Shown here: positions 2,031 through 64,000 of the stretch, in pieces
Numbering within the stretch: position 1 is the stretch's first letter
How the letters are laid out: each line of letters begins with the position of its first letter
NCBI GenBank assembly: GCA_963921825.1
Contig: OY997596.1
Span: 35,579,932-35,643,931 of the forward strand
Source: Erodium maritimum
Taxonomy: Eukaryota; Streptophyta; Magnoliopsida; Geraniales; Geraniaceae
DNA: 64,000 nucleotides
Reading direction: 5' to 3'
Made by a program: the position numbers and the translations under genes
The notes under the pieces: model-generated
What the model saw: the letters and a program-made list of their open reading frames with translations, nothing else
Database searches by the model: none
Told to the model about the DNA's origin: nothing

Positions 2031-5000
2031 GTAGCACCATGAAACTCCTCTCTTGGAATATGAGAGGAGCCTCCTCTGAACAAAAGAGGAGAGTGCTAAG
2101 AGATGTGATCCAGCAGCACAAACTATTACAAGAGACCAAATATCAAACCTTGCCTCCTTTTTTTTTTCTGAGATCAGTGGGTTTATGCAATGGTTGGAAG
2201 TTGGCTAGTATTGAGGCTCAGGGTTTGTCAGGTGGTTTGATCTCAATTTGGCTATCAGATGCTTTCAAGATGAAGTATGTTAAACCAATAGATCATGCAC
2301 TGATTTGGTTTGGGTTTGTTGAAGAATGGAAGATTGATTTGGCTATTGTCAATATTTATGATCTTTGCTCTACAACTTTGAGGAGAGCTCTTTGGTCAAA
2401 TTTGGTTGAGGAAGCATAGAATCTGGGAGATTACTATATTTTTGCTGGTGACTTTAATGCAATCTTGAACTCCTCTGAAAGAGTACCCCCCTCTAATGCT
2501 ATTATGTCCATCAGAGACTTTAACAACTTGTTAGTGGAAACTCCTTTGGTTGATCTCCCTCTTACTGGTGGACAGTTTACTTGGTTCCACAATAATTCAA
2601 AAGCTTCTAGGCTGGATAGATTCTTACTTGCTCCACAAGTCTTCTCTGATATAAAAAATCTCTCCCAGATTTGTCTCCCAAGATCTATCTCAGACCACAA
2701 ACCTGTGTTATTGGCTGATCCCTTCATTGATTGGGGGCCTAGACCCTTCAAATTTTTGAATGCTTGGTTGGATCATCCAATGTTCTACACAGATGTGAGC
2801 CAATTTTGGTCATCCTTGCATATAGTGGGCGAGCCTTGTTATGTCATCTGGATGAAGTTAAAGCTGTTAAAGGGGTTCCTAAAGACTTGGAATCTTGAGG
2901 TCTTTGGGTTCTTAGAGAGGGATATTGCCTCTCTCCAAGTTCTGATCAACAATTTTGATAGCATCCTGGAGGGTAGAAGTCTTACTGAAGTGGAAAGATC
3001 TGATAGAGCTCTTTGTAGTGCACATCTTATTCAGAAATTGAAGGCCTTGGCAAAAGTGTGGAGACAAAAGCCTAGATCAAAATGGATAAAGGAGGGTGAA
3101 AGATGCTCCAAATATTATTATATCATAGCCAAATTTTCCTCAACCAGAAAAAGAATTACTCAGATTCTTGTTGGAGACACAGTCATTTCCTCTCCTTCAA
3201 AAGTAAAAGAGGCAACCAGAACTCATTTTGCCAGTAGATTCAAGAAGAACTCCTCTATAGTTGTTGATCTCTCTCAGCTGCCCTTCAACAACATTTCTTC
3301 TTCCAAAGCAGATTTCTTGGAAAGACTTTTCTCAGATGAAGAAATTCTCAGTGCTGTATGGATTGCAATGGTGATAAAGCTACTGGCCCTGATGGGTACA
3401 CCCTCAAATTTTTTCAGAAATGCTGGAGTTTTCTACAAAGGGATGTCCTAAACTTTTGTCATCACTTTCACACAACTGGTTCCTTGGGTAAGGGTATCAA
3501 TTCATCTTTCTTCACCTTGATTCCTAAGGTCTCTAGTCCCTCCACTTTTGACGACTATAAACCTATTAGTTTGGTGGGAGCTTTATATAAAATCATTTCA
3601 AAAGTGTTAGCTGCAAGATTGAAAACTGTGATGGACTTCCTAGTAAGTGATGTGCAAACTGGCTTTATTGGTGAGAGACAAATACTAGATGGTATATTGA
3701 TAGCTTCTGAGGTACTACACTATGTCAAAGCTACAAGGGAAGAAGTGATATTATTCAAGGTAGATTTTGAAAAAGCCTATGATCACTTGGATTGGGGTTA
3801 TTTGGAATCAGTTCTCACAATTATGGGTTTTGGGGCCAGTGGTGTTATTGGATGAAATCTTGTTTTAATGCTTGGGCTTCAATGCTGATAAATGGCTCTC
3901 CCACAATTGATTTTCAACTCACTGGAGGTCTTAGGAAAGGTCGCTCTTTATCCCCATAGCTCTTTGCTTTAGCTGCTGAAGGATTACACTTAATTCTAGA
4001 GCAAAGGATCAGTTTTGGCAATCTTCAAGGGATCACCTGTGGAAGTGGTGGACCAATTATTTCTCATCTCCAGTTTGCTGATGATACCCTCATCTTCTTA
4101 AAGGCCAATCTCAACCATGTGCAGAATCTCAAGACCTCACTTCTGGCCTTTCAGTTGGCCTCAGGTTTAAAAATCAACTTCTATAAATCTAAAGTAGTGC
4201 TATTAAATGCTTCTTCAGTGGTTGAGTCCCAGATTATTTCTATATTAGGCTATGAGGGTGTACAGCTTCCCTTGGATTATTTGGGGTTTCAGTTGGTGGC
4301 AAACCCAAGAAGATATAGTACTTGGTTACCAGTTATAAAAAAGTTCAAGAAGAAGTTAAATTTATGGCAAGCAAAAAATATGAATTTTGGAGGGAGAGTC
4401 ACACTAATAAAGTCATCACTTTCCTCTCTCCCATTGTATTACATGTCACTTTACAAAAGCTCCTAAGAAGGTGTTAAGAGAAATGGAAATGTGGCAAAGG
4501 AGATTTCTTTGGAATGGCTCAGTTACAAAGAAAGTGTTACATAAGGTCAAATGGGACTTAATTTGCACTCTAAAGGATAAGGGAGGTTTGGGAATCAAAA
4601 GCTTGTATATTATGAATTCTGCCCTTTTAGCTAAATGGTGGAGGAGATTTGCTTTGGAGACAAATTCCTTATGGAAAAGATTCATATGTGCAAAGTATGG
4701 TTGGTGTGTAGAGGATTGGGACCTGTCCAAAATCACTATCACAGGGAATCAAAATTTTCCCAGCCATGTCCAGTCTTTATTAACTGATCAAAGGTTCTGT
4801 AGTGCTGTGGGTTTTGCTGGCTTGGAGTGGTTTGTCCATAATGGCTTGAGGGTCAGTTTCTGGGAGGACATCTGGTTAATAGATGAGCCTTTAAAGATTA
4901 GATTCAGGAGGCTTTATCACCTTTGTTTGCACAAAAAGATGAAAGTAGTACATTTTTGGAAGTCTTTGGTTCATAAATTTCAGGAGGGCTCTAAGAGGTT

Positions 5001-9229: not shown

Positions 9230-9625
9230 AATAGACCCAAAAAAACATGGAGTATATGAACAGTTTACCTGTCATCTCATTTGACACCCTTCTGAAGAGT
9301 TGGTGCCTTCTCCTTTATTGCAATATTTATCACCACGTTACATATTCCAAAACTATTGTTTTCATACACCGTCAAATGACTTTAGAGTCCTATGATTCTA
9401 GTCCAACAAATCTTGTGAATGCAATTCTTTTGGCTCATTGCAATATCATTGGTTGATAATAATGAATATGAAAAAAAAAACACAAACATATAGTTTCGCA
9501 CAAACTGTCCTATTTTTTCTGCGATTCTAATCAATAATGAAAATTATTTTTTGTATTAGTTATTCAAATGTACCAACTTCTTCATTTACATTACCGTGCA
9601 AAACATGAATAATATTAAAAGGAAG
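9230..9625. other. Unannotated spacer
   Basis: AT-rich sequence of about 400 bp between two MITEs. Short open frames only; no motif seen. Confidence 0.4.
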
Positions 9626-9635
9626 GAAATTTTTT

Positions 9636-10565
9636 AATTTAATATCCTGGTAAATTTTTATTTGCAATATAACACTCTAAGTCCCTAACATGTTATTTTT
9701 GCATTATAATACCCTGACAAACTATTATTTTCAGTTTCATACCCAACCGTTAACTTTTCATCCAAAATGGATGGAAAATGGTCATGTGCTTTGCACATGA
9801 CGTTTCTTTCAAAAAAAATACAAAAACACTCTTCAACCTTTGATTTTTAAAACATATAAAAACTGATTTAAAAAAAATATTTTTTGAAATATATAAAAAT
9901 CTGTTTTTTGTAATATATATATATATATATATAAACTGATTTTAATCTTTTTAAAATAAATCTGATTTTTTGAATTATATAAAAATATGATTTTTGAAAT
10001 ATATAAAAACTTTTTTTTAAATATTTTTTAAAATATATAAAAAAATCTGATTCTTGTAATCTATAAAAATTGATTTTTAAAATATTTTTTTAAATAAATA
10101 TGATTTTTTGAATTATATAAAAATATTATTATGAAATATATGAAAATTGATTTTTCAAATATATAAAAACTGATTTTTAAAAAATATTTTTTGAAATAAA
10201 ATATATTTTTAAAATATATAAAAATATTTTTTTTAATATGTAAAAACTGTTTTTTGAAATAAATCTGATTTTTTGAATTATATAAAAATAAGATTTTTTG
10301 AAATACATAAAAAATGATTTTTTTTCAATTTTTTTGAAATAAAAAATAGTTTTGTGAAACATATAAAAAGTCTGATTTTTTTGTGGTAGGTTTTGAAATT
10401 TTGATTGGTGTCAAGGGGTATTTTTGACTTTCCATCCATTTTGGATGGAAAATTAACAGTTGGATATGAAACTGAAAATGATAGTTTATCATGATATTAT
10501 TATAATACAAAAAAAACATACTAGGGTGTTATATTACAAATAAAAATTTGTTATGATATTAAATT
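9636..10565. mobile_element. MULE-like MITE, 930 bp, 10-bp TSD
   Basis: Long terminal inverted repeats start AATTTAATAT(C) at both ends and extend about 150 bp with mismatches, reaching the CCATCCAAAATGGATGG palindromic core. The target-site duplication GAAATTTTTT is identical at 9626-9635 and 10566-10575; 9-11 bp is typical of Mutator-like elements. The interior (9840-10390) is an AT-rich array of short ATATAAAAACTGATTTTT-like units. The 17-bp palindrome at 9783-9799 is shared with other elements in the window. There is no transposase. Confidence 0.85.
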
Positions 10566-10575
10566 GAAATTTTTT

Positions 10576-11095
10576 CTAAAAAGAATCAGTCAATGTGAAT
10601 AGATAGTAGAGGAATTAGCCAAGTATGTATATAGATATACTTACAAACTTGTGATTAAAACTCTGTCCAAGTGGGTCTGCCTCTAAAACCACTGTTCTTA
10701 AATTGGAACTAGCATTAATGTTAGTGGATGACAAGTTTAAGAGAATAAAAATGAATCGAAGTGACAAATTTAGAAATTGATAGCAACTAGTAACTTGCAA
10801 TTACACAACATATGTTAAATGTTACTAATATATATACGTGTCACATGCATGCAATCTCAACCTACCATACACCTATTAGCTGTGACCTCGATATATATTT
10901 ATATTATATGTAAAAGTTAATTCAGATTTCAGGTCACAACTACCTCTGTATTTCTATGAAGTGGAATGGGACTAGACATTAATGCTATAATTATGGCAAG
11001 AGGGGCAATTCTGTAATTTCCAGGTCATGGAAGAAAACCATGTCAGATCATTTAAAAGATGCAAGATGAATTGAATAGGGTTCCAGTGGAGAAAA
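10576..11095 (+). promoter_or_regulatory. Upstream region of the PROPEP-like gene
   Basis: The 520 bp between the MITE and the PROPEP-like start codon have no coding potential. A TATA-like stretch (TATATATTTATATTATA, about 10892-10908) is the only core-promoter candidate seen, about 190 bp before the ATG. A TTGAC/GTCAA core lies near 10585. The start context GAAAAATGG fits plant initiation preference. Transcription start is not determinable from sequence. Confidence 0.3.
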
Positions 11096-11702
11096 ATGGA
11101 GGAAGAAGAGAAAGGTGTGAGGTTTCTAGTGTGCCCATGTTGTGCTCTTCATGAAACATTTAGAGCCATCCTCAAGATTTTGGGTTTGGGAAGTGCACTC
11201 CATGATAGCTCCTCAAGTTCATCATCAGAAAAAGATGACCCTAACACTGCAGAACAAGTGGTGGTAAGAATTAAACTTTTTTCTCCTTTTACTTGCTTAA
11301 TTTACACAAGTTTATTTGATCAAAACTAGAGTATAATCATTATTTGTACTAAGTGAATATCTCGGGGTTAAATATGATGTAGTGTATATGTAACTTATTT
11401 CACTCACTTACGTGTAAAACCCTCAATGATGATGACCGATTTTACTTGCGGTCGTTCGACAAAAATGTCGTCGATCTCTAAATACACTCACCAATCAGAA
11501 GATTCTATAGTCAGAAAACTCCCGTCGATCGACGGATATATTATTACCCTTAACACACTAGTGACTATTCAGCATGTAAAAGTGTAAGAGATGTTTTGTA
11601 CAGGAAGAGGAGGAGGAAGAAGATAATGCGAGCTTGAGACTTTTAAGGGGGCCTCCAAAAAAACCAACAATAAGCACTGGGAGTGGTCCGAAGCACAATT
11701 AA
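11096..11702 (+). CDS. Plant elicitor peptide precursor (PROPEP-like)
   Basis: Two exons, 11096-11263 and 11604-11702, join in phase 0 across a GTAAGA...TACAG intron into an 88-residue protein. It is recognised by its overall plan. An N-terminal amphipathic segment (FRAILKILGLG, residues 22-32) resembles the RAILKCLGL stretch of Arabidopsis PROPEP1. A serine-rich and then strongly acidic middle follows (EEEEEED), and a basic, Pro/Gly-rich C-terminus ends RGPPKKPTISTGSGPKHN. The terminal SG-x-GP-x-HN fits the family's SGRPGQHN-type signature. In the known family, damage-activated metacaspases cut the precursor after Arg or Lys, and the released peptide of about 23 residues signals through PEPR receptor kinases to amplify defence; arginines at 67 and 70-71 offer such sites here. 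There is no signal peptide, as is usual for PROPEPs. Function is inferred from the C-terminal motif and gene plan. Confidence 0.87.
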
Positions 11703-12202: not shown

Positions 12203-13434
12203 AAGGGCATAATTGTAATAGCATGGTGCCATGTGGACAAGTGTCCATTTTTTTCTTAACCAATTCACTAATTTAATATTTCCCGATTCGTTTGAACTCC
12301 GATTAGCTTCAAACTTGCGCCAATATTTTTCTTTTTCCAAGGGCTTTAAATCAAGATCAGTCATGAATATATTTTGAAGCACGAAAATAAAAAGTTATAT
12401 TGGGGTGATAAAACCAATGTTGAGTGTTGATAAATGTTCACTAATAAAAATTTTATATCGGGGTATCAAACTAGTGCTAAATAGTGTTTAGTGTTGATAA
12501 AACTAGTTCTTAGTGTTCATAAAAAACGCGTGATGATGTGATAAAAATCATGTTCGATTTTGGAAAATGAGGTGATAAAACCAGTGTATAGTGTTGATAA
12601 ACCCAGTGTATAATGTTGATAAAAATTACCCAGACTTAACTTTTTTTTTAAATCAGCCACGAAATAAGGGTGAGAACCTAGAGTTTAGTATTAATAAAAA
12701 AAAACATGTGATGGGATGATAAAAACACATGTAATTTAATGATAAACATAATGTTTAGTGTTGATAAAACTAGTGCTTAGTGTTCATAAAAAAACATGTG
12801 ATGATGTGATAAAAATCATGTTCGATTTTGGAAAATGATGTGATAAAACTAGTGTTCAGTGTTGATAAACTCAGTGTATAGCGTTGATAAACCCAGTGTA
12901 TAGTGTTGATAAAAATTACCCAGACTTAACTTTTTTTTAAAATCAGCCCCGAAACAAGGGTGATAACCTAGAGTTTACTGTTGATAAAAAAACATGTGAT
13001 GAGATGATAAAAACTCATGTAATTTAATGATAAACATAGTGTTTAGTGTTGATAAAACTAGTGCTTAGTGTTCATTAAAAAACATGTGATGATGTGATAA
13101 AAATCATGTTCGATTTTGGAAAATGAGGTGATAAAACTAGTATTCAGTGTTGATAAACTCAGTGTATAGTGTTGATAAACCCAGTGTATAGTGTTGATAA
13201 ACTCAGTGTATAGTGTTGATAAAAATTACCCAGACTTAACTTTTTTTTTAAAATCAGCCCCGAAATAATTTTTTTCTCGTGCTTCAAAATATATTCATGA
13301 CTGATCTTGATAGAAAGCCCTTGAAAAAATAAAAATATTGGCGCAAGTTTGAATCCAATCGGATTTCAAACGAAGCGGGAAAAATTAAATTTGTGAATTG
13401 GTAAAAAAAATATGATAGTTTTACCAAAAAGCCC
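12203..13434. mobile_element. Fold-back element with internal tandem arrays
   Basis: Two inverted arms of about 140 bp lie at roughly 12252-12391 and 13268-13407. They share CAAACTTGCGCCAATATTTT and TATATTTTGAAGCACGA in opposite orientation. The outer limits are approximate (about 12203 and 13434), and no convincing target-site duplication was seen. The arms enclose an 880-bp tandem-repeat block. Long arms plus internal tandem repeats suggest a fold-back or Mutator-like non-autonomous element. Confidence 0.7.
12392..13266. repeat. Higher-order tandem repeat, about 290-310 bp x 3
   Basis: The marker CAGACTTAAC recurs at 12631, 12921 and 13231, giving periods of 290 and 310 bp. Each large unit is itself made of 20-24-bp subunits of the type CAGTGTATAGTGTTGATAAAC, with variable numbers of subunits per copy. 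No coding frame runs through the array. Confidence 0.85.
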
Positions 13435-14223: not shown

Positions 14224-16743
14224 GATATGTGACTCGAATTATTTGTTGTTAGGGCATAATTTTTCTTTCAACTAGCTACAGTACAACCTCAAGAACTTGA
14301 AGAACACCATCAATCTTCATAGCTCGATCTCATGTCCTCCGATGCAGTGTTCATGATGGACTCTCAATGAGTCATCGAACCATCGAGGGTTAGTACGCAT
14401 TTCAGGAGCCAATCAACCTTCAAGGTCACTTGCAGCCATGTCTTCGAAGAAGTTTCTCTGAAGTTGGGCAAGAAGCTCAAGATTTGCAGTTCCTTTGAGT
14501 TTTCTCTGTTTAAGCCTGAGTGTTTCTGGTCCCTTTGTCATTCATGGAGCTAGCAACCACCCACTTGGACAATATGGTCTCAGCTAAGTCCCTCACTTTG
14601 AAGAAAGTTTTTAAGAAGAAGGGTAGAAGAAGTAGACAACCCTTTTCTTCCTCGTCTTACCGGACTCAAGAATATTCTCCGGCAGGTCGAACCAAACTAA
14701 TCGACGGGAAAAAGATGTTTTATGACAAGTATTTTCACCCCGTCATCTCTGATCCAGACTCTACTCCCACCTTTCAAGTATCCAGAAGCAATAGACATGC
14801 AGGGCCTTCAAGAAGACATGCTCTACAAAGAACAAACATGGCCTCATTTGTTCAACAAGACTCTTCTTCTCTGGGAGACAGGTACATTGCTAAAAAGAAG
14901 TCAAAAGCATAGTGGTTTCCCCTCAGATCAACCAAAAGAGTCAGTTTTGAAGACAAGCTAAAATCCATAATCATCCCTCCCAAAGGACAGACTGAGGAAG
15001 AGTCCTCCTCCATGGGTTATCCCCCTCCAGGGCTTGAATCCTTCAAGCCAGCTCTGTTAGAAGAGAGAAGCAAGAAAAGAAAGTGCATACATGCTCTTGC
15101 TAGCCCTTGGGTAGCCTTTATCTATAATCTCCCTCATTTTGCATCAAATAAGTGGCTATTTGAGGTGTTCTCAAGCACCAGAGGCTTGGTTAAAGCAATT
15201 GTGGATCCTAAACAAAATCGAGCAGGAAAATGGTTTGGTTTCTGCCACTTCTCAGATCTTCAGGGCCTTCAGCAAGCTATCTCCTTATTCAATGGAGCTG
15301 TCTTTTCCTCTCATAAGTTGTTTGTTACTAAGGTTTGGAACAAGGAAGACAAATCTAAGGGCCCTGGTTTCGAAGCATCTAGTTCTGAACCACTTCTTCA
15401 AGGCTCTTTGGTGCATGCTCTTGACAATCAACTAAGCAATTCATACTTGGCTGTAACTCATAGTATTTACAATGATGATACAATTTTGTTTGAGATCACC
15501 AATGAAGGTGTTTTTGAAGTTCAGATCAAATCTCTTGGAAATAGAGTTGTATTAGTACATTGCCCTGGTCCTCTTTTTGATGCTGAGCTGCTAAAGGATG
15601 AAGGAGGATGGATAAATTAATGGTTAACCATTCTCCCAGGAAAGGCTCAACTCTGTAGAAAAAGTGGCTCATTCATATGGATTGTCATCCATGGCATTCC
15701 TTATCATGGTTGGAGTCTTGAGACAATGGAAACTTGTGTTCGAAATTTTGGTTCCTTGGTTTATACTCACCCAAGAGCTTGCTCTGGTGTTCATATGGAT
15801 GTTTCTCATGTTCTGATTCATACATCTAAACTCTCAGCCATCTCAAAGGAATTTCAGATTATGGTTGGTAATACTCCCTTTGACATTTGGGTTCACTCTA
15901 TTGATTTTGCTGTTATCCCAGTTATTACTGGAAGAGAGCCTATCTCTTCCTCCTGTACGCAAAGCACTAGCAATTCAGAGTATTTGGCCTGCACAAACAA
16001 AGACTCTAAGGTCTCTTCTTCCATTTTAGGCACTAATTGCTTAAAGTCAGATAAAGTCTCTCCTTTAAAATACTCATTGACTCCTTTATTTAATGAGAGG
16101 GACAAAGATTTCCTTTCCCTGGTCCACTCCTCTCATTCTATGGAAAATTTAGTGGTAAGAGACACTTATTCCTCAAATGCTTCTGGATTGAAGACAACAT
16201 TAATGGAGTTGCATGGAGAAGATGGTTTGGTAAATTCAGTTGCCCCTACAGCTGAGGTTGTGGGAATGGAAAGGAATGTCGATCTGTTAATTCCTTCTGC
16301 TCCATCATTAGTGCAGACCATGGTCCTGGATTTGGACACTCCTTTGGGAGTCCTTTGGGAGGGGATTTGTTTGTCGATACTGTGTGCCCCCTCAAGCAAA
16401 AGACTCAACACCTCTACGTCTTCAGCTGCTTTTTGGTTCAGCCTTTATTCATTTTAGGGAGGATCTTAAGCAAGCTGCAGTTGCCACTCTCAATCAAAAA
16501 CAACATCTCAACCTCTCTATCAACTGTATCTATATTAGAACCTCCTCAAATCAATCAAGTTGCTCGGTCAATCGCAACACCCTTTAAATTCTTTGATCTT
16601 TGGTTATTTTGGTCTGTCTTTAGTTGTATATATTCTTGTTTGTTGTAATCTGGTTCATCCTCTTTAGTTGGGTGGATGATACTTCCCTCCTATATTCATC
16701 CTTTGAATTGGAGGTTTTATAAAATTTATTGGCCTATATAAAA
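14224..16743 (+). mobile_element. LINE with ORF1 only, perfect 16-bp TSD
   Basis: The insertion is bounded by the 16-bp direct repeat AAGAGTCCATCTTATG at 14208-14223 and 16744-16759, and ends in an A-rich tail (TATATAAAAA). It holds a 5' leader, an ORF1-type frame with an RRM-like domain, and about 280 bp of 3' untranslated sequence. The endonuclease, reverse transcriptase and zf-RVT regions of ORF2 are absent. The intact duplication shows the copy landed in this form by target-primed reverse transcription, rather than losing ORF2 together with a flank. Confidence 0.82.
14520..16457 (+). pseudogene. LINE ORF1 with RRM-like domain
   Basis: A basic N-terminal part (14520-14912) is followed after a frame change by 15012-15620. 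That segment contains an RRM-like block: WVAFIYNLPHF (RNP2-like) and KWFGFCHF (RNP1-like), about residues 35-105 of the segment. A TAA at 15618 interrupts the frame, which then continues (DUF4283-like IHGIPYHGW...) into 15726-16457. Plant L1 ORF1 proteins bind element RNA as chaperones. The missing zinc knuckle and the stops make a functional protein unlikely. Confidence 0.65.
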
Positions 16744-25149: not shown

Positions 25150-49973
<24,824 letters not shown>

Positions 49974-51000: not shown

Positions 51001-53387
51001 AACTAAACGATAGAAAAAAAAATAGACAAAAGCTATCTTCTACCTCTTCGTGAGGTCCTCTCTACCCTAGCTAGGGTTCGCCGCCGCCGCCACCGTTGTT
51101 TCTCGCCTCCCTCTTCGCCATCTTCATCGTTGTCATCCAGCCGCCCTCGAGCCCCGACCTCGCTCTTGTTCTCCTGCTGCCCCACGCTGCATCTGCCCGT
51201 CTCTGTCACCCTCATCGACCCCCCTGCAGTCGGCCGTCGCCATTTCTGCCCACACACCACCGGATCTACCTATCCCCTGTCGTGCCCAGTCAGAAATGAC
51301 GTCCAATGGCCAGTTCCAATAAGGTGCTGACGACTCTCAACAGCACGTTGTCCCCGACCAGCGAGGGTTCCCCTACAGCGACTTTAGCATGCCGTTGTCC
51401 GAGACACCTCCAACTCTTCCCCTGCCGGATCCCCGGCGGCCGACAGGCCTCCTGGCTCTGAAGGATAAACCGGGTGCGAACCAGACAGAGCCCGTGGATC
51501 CTGAGACATCGGCGACGGCCTCGGCTCAAGACGGACGCCACCTGATAGCGAGGGAGACCCATCGGGATCTGCCGCCCCACCCTCGGCCTCACTCCTCAAT
51601 GGTGGTGCCTAGATACCGCCCTCCGTCAAATCGAACATCGGACTCGAGTCCTAGGTCCTCAAGTGGACGGGGATCGACGGGTTGCCCATCTGAGATCCAA
51701 TCGACCCGTATATCCCCGGTCCCGGATTGGGAGGACGAGGATGACGAAGTGGTGGTCTCGGAGGAAGGGGTCCCACTTTTCAACAAGGGCACGTACCAGT
51801 TCTCCCTTGCAGCCAAGGTTGCAGGGGACCGGATCTACAATCAGAACGTCGTCTGTGCGCTGATGCTGCAGAAGTGGAAGGTGACTGGGATCCAGTTGGA
51901 GTTCATGTCCCCAGAGGTCACAGGCTATCATTTCCCGTCCGCAGAGACGATGGAAAATATCCGTCATAGGGCTCCCTGGAGCTTCAAGGGTTTTCCTCTC
52001 CTGTTGGAGCCGCTCAGACAATTTGTCTAGGCCAATGAGATTAACTTCAATCATGTGGAGATCGGTGTCCGGGCGCTCAATATCCCGGGGGGAGCCAGGA
52101 ACGACTATATTTGCGGCCTCATTGCAGACAGTATTGGCACCCAGGTCCCTTCGCCCCCGATCTTGTTGGCTCGACGGGAGGATATGTTCTTATGGCTACG
52201 GGTCCGGATGGAGCTGCACCGACCTCTACGGCGAAGGCTCCGTCTCAGATTCCCAGGTACCACAACATCCGATGTGATTGACTTGGAATATGAGAGGGTA
52301 GTGGATTTTTGTCGCAGGTGTGGAATGTTAACCCACAGAATCTCGGGTTGCACAACTCAGTTGCTGGGAATTGGTCGGGAAGAGATTCGGTATGACCCGT
52401 CTATCCTGGCCCCGAGGCAGATGAATGTGGATCGACTGCTGAGGACGGTCTGGAATACACCCCCCAATGACACACCCGACTATTACGTATCTCCTGAGTG
52501 ACCTGTCCCTAAACCGGATGATTCGCTCTAGGGAAATCACTATGGGTGAGGATCTACCCGGCACAGACATTCCGAAGTCTGACAATCTGGCTAAGGCTAC
52601 CCTAGGAGGGGAAACCAATGTAATGCAGGAGGGAGGGCGTCGAGTCTCTGGACCGCCACCAGGCTTCACGAAGTCTGACAATCTGGCTAACGACCACCCT
52701 ACTGCTGATACTGTGGACCGAGCTAAACCCGGAGCTATCGCAGTGACCGGGGAAGGGAAGGAGAAAGATCTCTTGGGGCAACAGAAAGATCCCTATGTTG
52801 GACTAGGGAAAGGAGGGCCCATCCGAAGAAAGGGTAATATGACCACCTTGAAGACCAGAAGCGGGTCGTTGTATGCGCGTCCGCCAGAGTCGAAGAAGCT
52901 GCTGGATGATCCGACCCCCAACATCACATAATGTGGCCGGTCTACCAGAAGGAGGAGATGGAAGAGCAGACGGAGGCACAACAGCCTCCGATGGAGGAAT
53001 GAACATACCCGACAAGGGTGGGTGGAGTCGTCCTCAGACTATACCTACAAACCCGAGACAGCCAGTGCTGGGAGGTCCCGGGCAGCCTGCACATTCAGCA
53101 AAGTTTATTTATATGTTCTCTTATTATCTGTCTTATCTTTGGGACATTTTATTTCCTGTTGGTTTTAGGATTTTTTATTTTATGTCTCGTTATGTTGGGA
53201 CGATGGTAAGGAGTTATCTTGAGTTTGTGCCCACGATTTCAAGTGGGCTATTATTATGGGTCCATGAGCGACGGGCTTGCTACTATCGGCCCGGACATAC
53301 ATTTGGAACCCGAGGCAGTCACGCCTCATCCTGTTTGATTATCTATTGGTATTAATGAAAGTCTCCGGTTGCCCGTTTAAAAAAAAA
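51001..53387 (+). mobile_element. ORF1-only LINE nested in a hAT-like element
   Basis: The flanks AGAAATTGATGTTTTT (50985-51000) and AGAAATTGAAGTTTTT (53388-53403) are a 16-bp TSD with one change. The element has a GC-rich 5' leader, one ORF1 with DUF4283-like and CCHC zinc-knuckle regions, and a 3' tail of about 300 bp ending CCCGTTTAAAAAAAAAA. No endonuclease or reverse transcriptase is present. It is the most complete of several such copies in the window. Confidence 0.85.
51389..52931 (+). pseudogene. LINE ORF1: DUF4283-like and CCHC zinc knuckle
   Basis: A Pro/Ser-rich N-terminus (51389-51750) precedes a DUF4283-like block (residues about 135-213; RHRAPWSFKGFPLLLEPL). An in-frame TAG at 52028 interrupts it. 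The frame continues with YICGLIADSIGTQV, LRVRMELHRPLRRRLRLRF and the zinc knuckle CRRCGMLTHRISGC near 52310. After a shift, a basic/Gly-rich tail (52467-52931) follows. In plant L1 elements this protein binds element RNA. Confidence 0.78.
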
Positions 53388-62046: not shown

Positions 62047-64000
62047 TTTTTTTTATAAGCGATAAATTTTTATTAAAAAGCAATTTCCAAGGAGGAAAAG
62101 GCTATGGTAAAACGATTACAATAAACTCCAACAAGGAGAAAAAAGGGAGAATGTCCCTTAAGGAGAAAAGTTACAACCCAATAAGCAAACGACGAGGCTT
62201 CCTCCGCAAGCAACCAACTGGATCGTGTTGCCAATCTGCAAAGGACCTATCACTACGAATGGACTTGGAAAGCCAAAAAATACTAAAGGACTGATTCTGA
62301 ATCTTGCCAAGAACCACCCGACTGCTTTCCATAATGTGGTTGAAAACTACCCCGTTCCGCAGGAGCCACAATTGCCAAAAGACCACATAACCAATCTGAA
62401 CCCAATGCTTCCACCACCAATTCGCCCTAACGCCCTTCCACGACAGAATAGCACCGACGACAGTTTTGGGGCATACCCAAACTACCTTCCACCATAAACA
62501 AACCAAACCCCAAATGAGGGCCGCTACAAGACAATGGAGCATGATATGATCGAAGTCCTCTATGCCGGATAGACACATCTTGCAATACACACCAGCCAAA
62601 GTAATTTGGACCCCTCTCGATTCTAAGAAAACCGAAGTAGGAAGAATAGAATGTGAACTCAACTAGACCAACATCGAGAGCTTGGGGGAATAGCTTTAAC
62701 CCACAAAATGGCAGCCCATTCAGACGCCTACAATCCATCATTACCAGATAAAATTTCATAACCTGTCGCAACTGAAAAAACACCCTTATCTTTGTTCTAG
62801 TGAATCTGGTCCTGAGTGAACGGATCCAGAGACAGTCCTTGAAGATTGCCCAACAAAGCAACAAGCTCATCTCTTTCCCAATCCCAGAGATTACGACGAG
62901 GTAAGATGCTCCAAGTCTCGTTAGCCCAAAACTCTGAAACCAAGCCCGTAGTGTTCCTTGCAGCAGCATAGATACGAGGGAAACGAACCTTAAAAGGAAT
63001 AAAACCATGCCAAGGATCATCCCAAAATCGAGCCCTAGAGCCATCACCCACCCTCCAAAATAAATTTTGCCTGCCAAACAATGTACTGAACATCGGATCA
63101 CCGGCCAGGTTGAGGATGTGATGAAAGAGAAACGCATTACCCCTTCGATCCAGCGCCGTAAGAACCCAATCGAGTGACGACCAGCCAAATTTGGAACAAA
63201 TTAGCTGCTTCCAGAGTGAATTGGAATCTGTGGCAAATCGCCAATACCACTAAGCCAGTAACGCGTCATTCATAGCTGCAAGATGCCGGAGCCCCAAACC
63301 TCCCTTCTTCTTCGGCCTACAGACTTGATCCCAACTGAGTTTATTAAAGGATTTACCTGAATGATATGACTTCCAGAGAAAAGAGCGCTGACAACTCTCC
63401 AAGGTGCGGACAAAGGCCTTGGGCGCCTTGAGCAGAGACATGTAAAATAAATGGAGTCCCGATAGAGTGCTTTGAATTAACACCACACGCCCAGCCAAGG
63501 ATAAAAACTTTGTATGCCAAACTGCCATAGACTTCCTATATTTGGTTATAATCGGATCCCAAGTTGTAATACCCTTGGGGGAAGCTCCCAAGCTGAAACC
63601 TAGATAGGGCATAGGTAAAACTGTTGACGTGCACCCCAAGCAATCCTCAACAACAGACGACGATAATAGATTTTCATTCAGAATTACGGGCTTGGACTTG
63701 ATGAAATTAATTTGCAACCCAGAAATCCATTCAAATGAAACGAGAACGGCCTTAAGCCTCGACAGCTCCTCTAAAACGCCATTGATAAATAGCAATGTAT
63801 CGTCTGCAAATTGAAGGTGTGATACTGACAATCTAGTGGTCACTTCCACTCCATGGAATAAGTGTTGATCTTTCCCGAACTCCAAAAGTCTATGGAGACC
63901 CTCTGCTGCAATTAAGAACAAGAATGGTGACAAGGGACATCCTTGTCTTATGCCATTGAACATTTGGAACTCCCAACCTGGTGAACCATTGACAAAAACT
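62047..64000 (-). mobile_element. L1-like LINE 3' half, running off the window
   Basis: The A8 tail on the minus strand lies at 62047-62054, preceded by a short 3' UTR. ORF2 begins beyond 64000. It is more intact than the other LINE copies in the window and related in plan to the element at 1472-6473. Confidence 0.9.
62171..64000 (-). pseudogene. LINE ORF2: reverse transcriptase and zf-RVT, partial
   Basis: Open from the window edge to 63250: FNGIRQGCPLSPFLF, then LQFADDTLLFI with the catalytic ADD, PYLGFSLGA, LSLAGRVVLIQS and KKKGGLGLRHLAAMNDALLA. An in-frame TAG at 63250 follows DALLA. The downstream frame shows GDGSRARFWDDPWHG (63093-62797). After a shift, the zf-RVT region has CKMCLSGIEDFDHIMLHC (62662-62171) and a Trp-rich C-terminus. 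At least one stop and one or two frameshifts in about 1.8 kb indicate recent inactivation. Confidence 0.9.

Follow-up and report, generated by a model that had tools for sequence, protein, structure and literature searches.

The short locus at positions 11,096 to 11,702 raises the question of whether its two open frames form a PROPEP gene, that is, a precursor gene of a Pep-family wound-alarm peptide. Based on the sequence comparisons below, we consider it very probable that they do and that the gene encodes a predicted peptide of this family. The window, by which we mean the whole stretch of DNA analysed, covers 64,000 nucleotides of Erodium maritimum (C9:35579932-35643931), the genome of which comprises 763 Mb in 40 contigs; positions without a contig name refer to the window.

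The start codon (ATG, 11096), a donor GT at 11264, an AG ending at 11603 and the stop codon TAA (11700-11702) were all read in the sequence. Splicing and translation in silico, joining 11263 to 11604, gave the 88-aa product that the earlier note had proposed for a two-exon gene, and the signals and frames needed for it are present. The ATG at 11096 is the sole Met codon within the open frame 11075-11329. The predicted features are as follows.

11096..11263, plus strand: exon 1, the N-terminal part (residues 1-56), with FRAILKILGL, a Ser run and the first acidic part; Pep1_7 profile 38.8 bits alone and 38.2 bits in the genome search
11159-11188, plus strand: hydrophobic FRAILKILGL in exon 1
11264..11603, plus strand: predicted GT-AG intron of 340 bp, phase 0, from sequence only
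11604..11702, plus strand: exon 2 with the stop (residues 57-88), EEEEEEDN and then the basic Pep region; SxGxxxxxN end, likeness to Peps and to the paralogue, no Pfam match alone
11640..11699, plus strand: predicted 20-residue Pep LLRGPPKKPTISTGSGPKHN, expected from a cut after R68 by the metacaspase basic P1 rule and the residue positions
From 11649, plus strand: predicted 17-mer from a cut after R71, an alternative to the 20-residue Pep

The G+C content of the predicted intron was 0.33 vs 0.44 and 0.46 in the exons, and the tract preceding the acceptor was poor in pyrimidines (39%), a point against the predicted gene. Among the acceptors tried, an in-frame AG that starts exon 2 at 11610 would give 86 aa with an unchanged C-terminus, and with exon 2 starting at 11608, behind an AG that is out of frame, the protein would stop at 65 aa, without the Pep. 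The intron also carries a perfect G+C-rich palindrome, CCGTCGATCGACGG, at 11522-11535.

The calculated charge was -2.3 for residues 1-37, -10.5 for residues 38-64 and +4.9 for residues 65-88, in agreement with the acidic middle and the basic C-terminus ending TGSGPKHN that had been described for this product. The intron had been placed between the acidic region and the peptide; in fact it splits the acidic region, and EEEEEED opens exon 2. The amphipathic character of the N-terminal segment was borne out weakly, the hydrophobic moment of residues 16-34 being reached by 4.6% of shuffles. The N-terminus reads MEEEEKGVRF, in which a signal peptide was not evident by eye.

Against the Pfam family PF17232 (Pep1_7), a profile of 82 positions with a curated cut-off of 26.2 bits, the 88-aa protein scored 43.9 bits (E 3.3e-11), residues 2-84 aligning to profile positions 5-82. 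The membership in the PROPEP family claimed at the outset is thus upheld by the profile, and the C-terminal motif, the published Peps and a paralogue described below agree with it. Given the many Glu and Ser residues of the protein and the shortness of the profile, a random acidic, Ser-rich frame might resemble the profile by chance; we regard this explanation as very improbable, since the profile matched none of six shuffled sequences nor the one reversed sequence, and a six-frame search of all 763 Mb gave just one other place over the cut-off. The layout also agrees with that reported for Rosaceae PROPEPs, which have two exons with the Pep in an exon of its own (PMC5782389); the same division into an N-terminal part and a Pep is predicted here around the intron 11264-11603. 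Residues 45-47 read EKD, reminiscent of an EKE or EKD that other PROPEPs are noted to carry (PMC11289955), but a likeness of three residues proves little. A comparison of the 88-aa protein with the PDB sequences (E up to 10) gave 0 matches.

The family assignment rests mainly on exon 1, which alone scored 38.8 of the 43.9 bits (39.3 bits for the exon-1 read-through); exon 2 alone matched no Pfam family. Because of this, exon 2 needed separate tests. The same distribution of the score would suit another explanation, in which exon 1 is a real PROPEP exon of a silent or decaying copy, or one whose true last exon lies elsewhere, and no Pep is made from 11604-11702.

The first of these tests concerned the C-terminal motif. 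The eight AtPeps share SxGxxxxxN (PMC4526913), and exon 2 ends STGSGPKHN, which fits it via S80, G82 and N88. We took every AG in the window, on both strands and in three frames, and kept the open frames that reached a stop after 15-80 codons. Only one of the 2230 distinct candidate terminal-exon stops had an SxGxxxxxN end, namely that of exon 2, and this stop was reachable from four acceptors. A narrower variant, SxGxxGxxN, is described for Brassicaceae, Rosaceae and Cucurbitaceae (PMC13148170). The window peptide departs from it, having Pro85 at the second Gly position, the fourth place from the end. SxGxxGxxN is a variant of three plant families and not a feature of all PROPEPs, since PvPep1 also has Pro at the Gly position. 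For strings including GSGPKHN, no mention was found in the open-licence literature, which lacks most subscription papers. One text match to PKHN alongside PROPEP belonged to a nematode CLE peptide and was rejected.

In the second test, the last 24 residues were aligned with published Peps, with 5000 shuffles for each and with systemin and flg22 as controls. The highest score was obtained with AtPep3 (50, 0/5000 shuffles; 8 of the last 12 residues identical), followed by PvPep1 (48, 0/5000; 7 of 12) and the tomato Pep (44, 1/5000; 4 of 12). AtPep1 scored 27 (116/5000; 4 of 12), and the controls scored 26 (systemin, 208/5000) and 21 (flg22, 175/5000). By shuffle count AtPep1 matched no better than the controls, which argues against a close relation of the window peptide to AtPep1.

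Residue by residue, Arabidopsis AtPep3 shares KPTxSxGxGxKHN with the window peptide but has Gly instead of Pro at the fourth place from the end (PMC4304247). PvPep1 of common bean shares TxSxGSGPxH before the final residue; it ends with Asp rather than Asn, and its N-terminal half is unlike (PMC13048380). The tomato Pep (REF1) shares the Pro-rich, Gly-rich basic end and differs in Gly in place of S80 and in its end QNN (PMC12283378). In AtPep1, S15, G17 and N23 correspond to S80, G82 and N88, and both peptides end HN (PMC4304247).

When the entire genome was searched in six frames with the Pep1_7 profile (E up to 10), four places were obtained from six candidates, all of which were scored. At E up to 0.001 only exon 1 of the window gene was found. 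Besides it, one other place, on C2, passed the profile cut-off, and a second gene on the same contig was reached through a match below the cut-off.

C2:1136652-1138267: second PROPEP-like gene, two exons, 99 aa; found through its exon 1 (C2:1136643, 23.0 bits, below the cut-off)
C2:13340487-13340648, minus strand: PROPEP-like exon 1; Pep1_7 28.4 bits in the genome search and 29.7 bits as protein, above the cut-off

The fourth place, C6:1536752 (19.1 bits), is Ser/Cys-rich and lies opposite a long open frame of the other strand; it was judged to be a chance match, as was a separate genome match at C8:29004507 (E 5.65, 34%).

The second gene, C2:1136652-1138267, has an open exon 1 with FLKCLG, a phase-0 GT-AG intron of 1316 bp and an exon reading EDEVLNLRSTARIKPTKPKIGSGGGPKINSSSSS; its Pep end is PKIGSGGGPKIN, followed by five Ser. 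The joined protein scored 25.6 bits against Pep1_7, just below the 26.2-bit cut-off. Its PTKPKIGSGGGPKIN and the PKKPTISTGSGPKHN of the window gene were identical at 9 of 15 positions in an ungapped alignment, a score reached by 0/5000 shuffles. The Pep exon and the splice of this paralogue were first chosen by eye, the motif scan having missed the exon owing to the Ser tail. As an unbiased check of this choice, all candidates were ranked afterwards against the window Pep: the exon scored 49, the best of 52 downstream candidates (next 22), and none of 2663 other candidates in the window reached 49 (best 40). The alignment of its exon 1 with that of the window gene was weak (190/5000 shuffles reach the score). 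Both genes have two exons, a phase-0 GT-AG intron and an exon 2 that opens acidic, whereas the paralogue differs in Gly in place of S80, in the five-Ser tail after Asn and in the length of its intron. The GSGP of the window Pep is also that of PvPep1 (PMC13048380), and the paralogue has GGGP.

The other C2 place resembled the window gene in exon 1 (1/5000 shuffles reach the alignment score), and no convincing phase-0 Pep exon was found in the ~4 kb downstream, where the best of 84 candidates scored 21. This copy may be broken, or its intron may be long. An exon 1 over the cut-off without a Pep-like exon suggests that incomplete copies may exist, and this speaks for a silent or decaying copy in the window as well. 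Against such a copy, both frames of the window gene are open, the intron is in phase 0, the end fits the Pep motif, and exon 2 of the C2:1136652-1138267 paralogue is related to exon 2 of the window gene. Taken together, we consider a copy that makes no Pep from exon 2 improbable, and we proceed with the reading of the locus as a PROPEP gene whose predicted Pep is encoded by 11604-11702.

Such a peptide would be expected to have a receptor in the same genome. The probe used was a fragment of the AtPEPR1 kinase domain, and 150 of 1622 candidates were scored. At least 154 matches to the probe were obtained, and the two best among the matches listed were read; the best of them lies on C8 (59% identity over 186 residues), and the second showed 49% identity.

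C8:69057808-69061083: predicted PEPR1-like receptor gene with an open frame for 1091 aa, scoring 736 bits against 5gr8

Residues 25-731 of the C8 receptor align along the AtPEPR1 ectodomain (5gr8), at the 736 bits given above, the next structure being GSO1 (469 bits). The second match scored higher against GSO1 (518 bits) than against PEPR1 (403 bits). According to Lori et al., most species have a single PEPR (PMC4526913). Judging from these alignments, the genome holds a matching PEPR1-like receptor.

Arabidopsis metacaspase 4, once activated by Ca2+, cleaves PROPEP1 at Arg69 (PMC7206013), and the residue that metacaspases favour ahead of the cleavage site is Arg or Lys (PMC13157962). AtPep1 needs no more than its last 15 residues for activity, and S15, G17 and N23 matter (PMC4526913). 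A 23-residue peptide had been suggested for the window gene, a boundary that has no mark in the sequence. In AtPROPEP1 the Pep follows immediately on Arg69, where the cut is made (PMC7206013), whereas here N64 precedes A65. As neither A65 nor S66 is preceded by a basic residue, the 23-mer is a doubtful metacaspase product. A cut after R68 would yield a peptide of 20 residues and one after R71 a peptide of 17, both longer than the 15 sufficient in AtPep1, and R68 lies opposite the Arg preceding STAR of the C2 paralogue in the alignment of the two genes. One of these two, R68 or R71, may be the cut site.

The gene structure, the family profile, the C-terminal motif, the paralogue and the receptor gene are read from the sequence; that the gene is expressed and spliced, and that its product is cleaved, released, bound by a receptor and active in wounding, we infer as follows. 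The PROPEP gene would give an 88-aa precursor without an evident signal peptide. In wounded tissue, Ca2+ would activate a type II metacaspase that cleaves it after an Arg of exon 2 (R68 or R71). The Pep, the basic C-terminal part with the end STGSGPKHN, would then escape from the damaged cell. Once perceived by an LRR receptor kinase of the PEPR type, e.g. the one on C8, it would amplify the defence response.

The gene lies between two inverted-repeat elements. The upstream one (9624-10577) has arms at 9703-9777/10429-10503 (75 nt, 88%) and 9624-9679/10522-10577; the downstream one has arms at 12251-12392/13269-13410 (142 nt, 90%) and encloses a tandem repeat of 288 bp at 12573-13201. Both elements resemble fold-back (MITE-like) insertions and lie near the promoter and the 3' end. 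Elsewhere in the window, retroelement pieces were found at 2420-4463, 52031-52498 and 62174-62662 (RVT_1 and zf-CCHC_4, with endonuclease-like and zf-RVT matches below the cut-off), and long frames on the minus strand at 41006-44820 resemble, by eye, a copia-type polyprotein. An open frame at 14913-15617 with RRM_1 (29.2 bits vs a cut-off of 20.7) adjoins retroelement-like frames.

It is conceivable, though we hold it for rather unlikely, that this plant lineage has a Pep signature of its own, [SG]xGxGPKxN, in two otherwise divergent PROPEPs (one with an Asn end, one with a Ser tail after Asn), and that the ligand pocket of PEPR has shifted to match. If so, one receptor would have two ligands of different strength. 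As for the window gene, it adds an ordinary member to a known family and defence system, and it raises no new question on how Peps work. The end of its predicted peptide is closest to AtPep3 and PvPep1. A danger-peptide gene that can be tested is now named in one plant together with a paralogue and a candidate receptor, which may aid annotation and help in choosing a synthetic elicitor for this plant.
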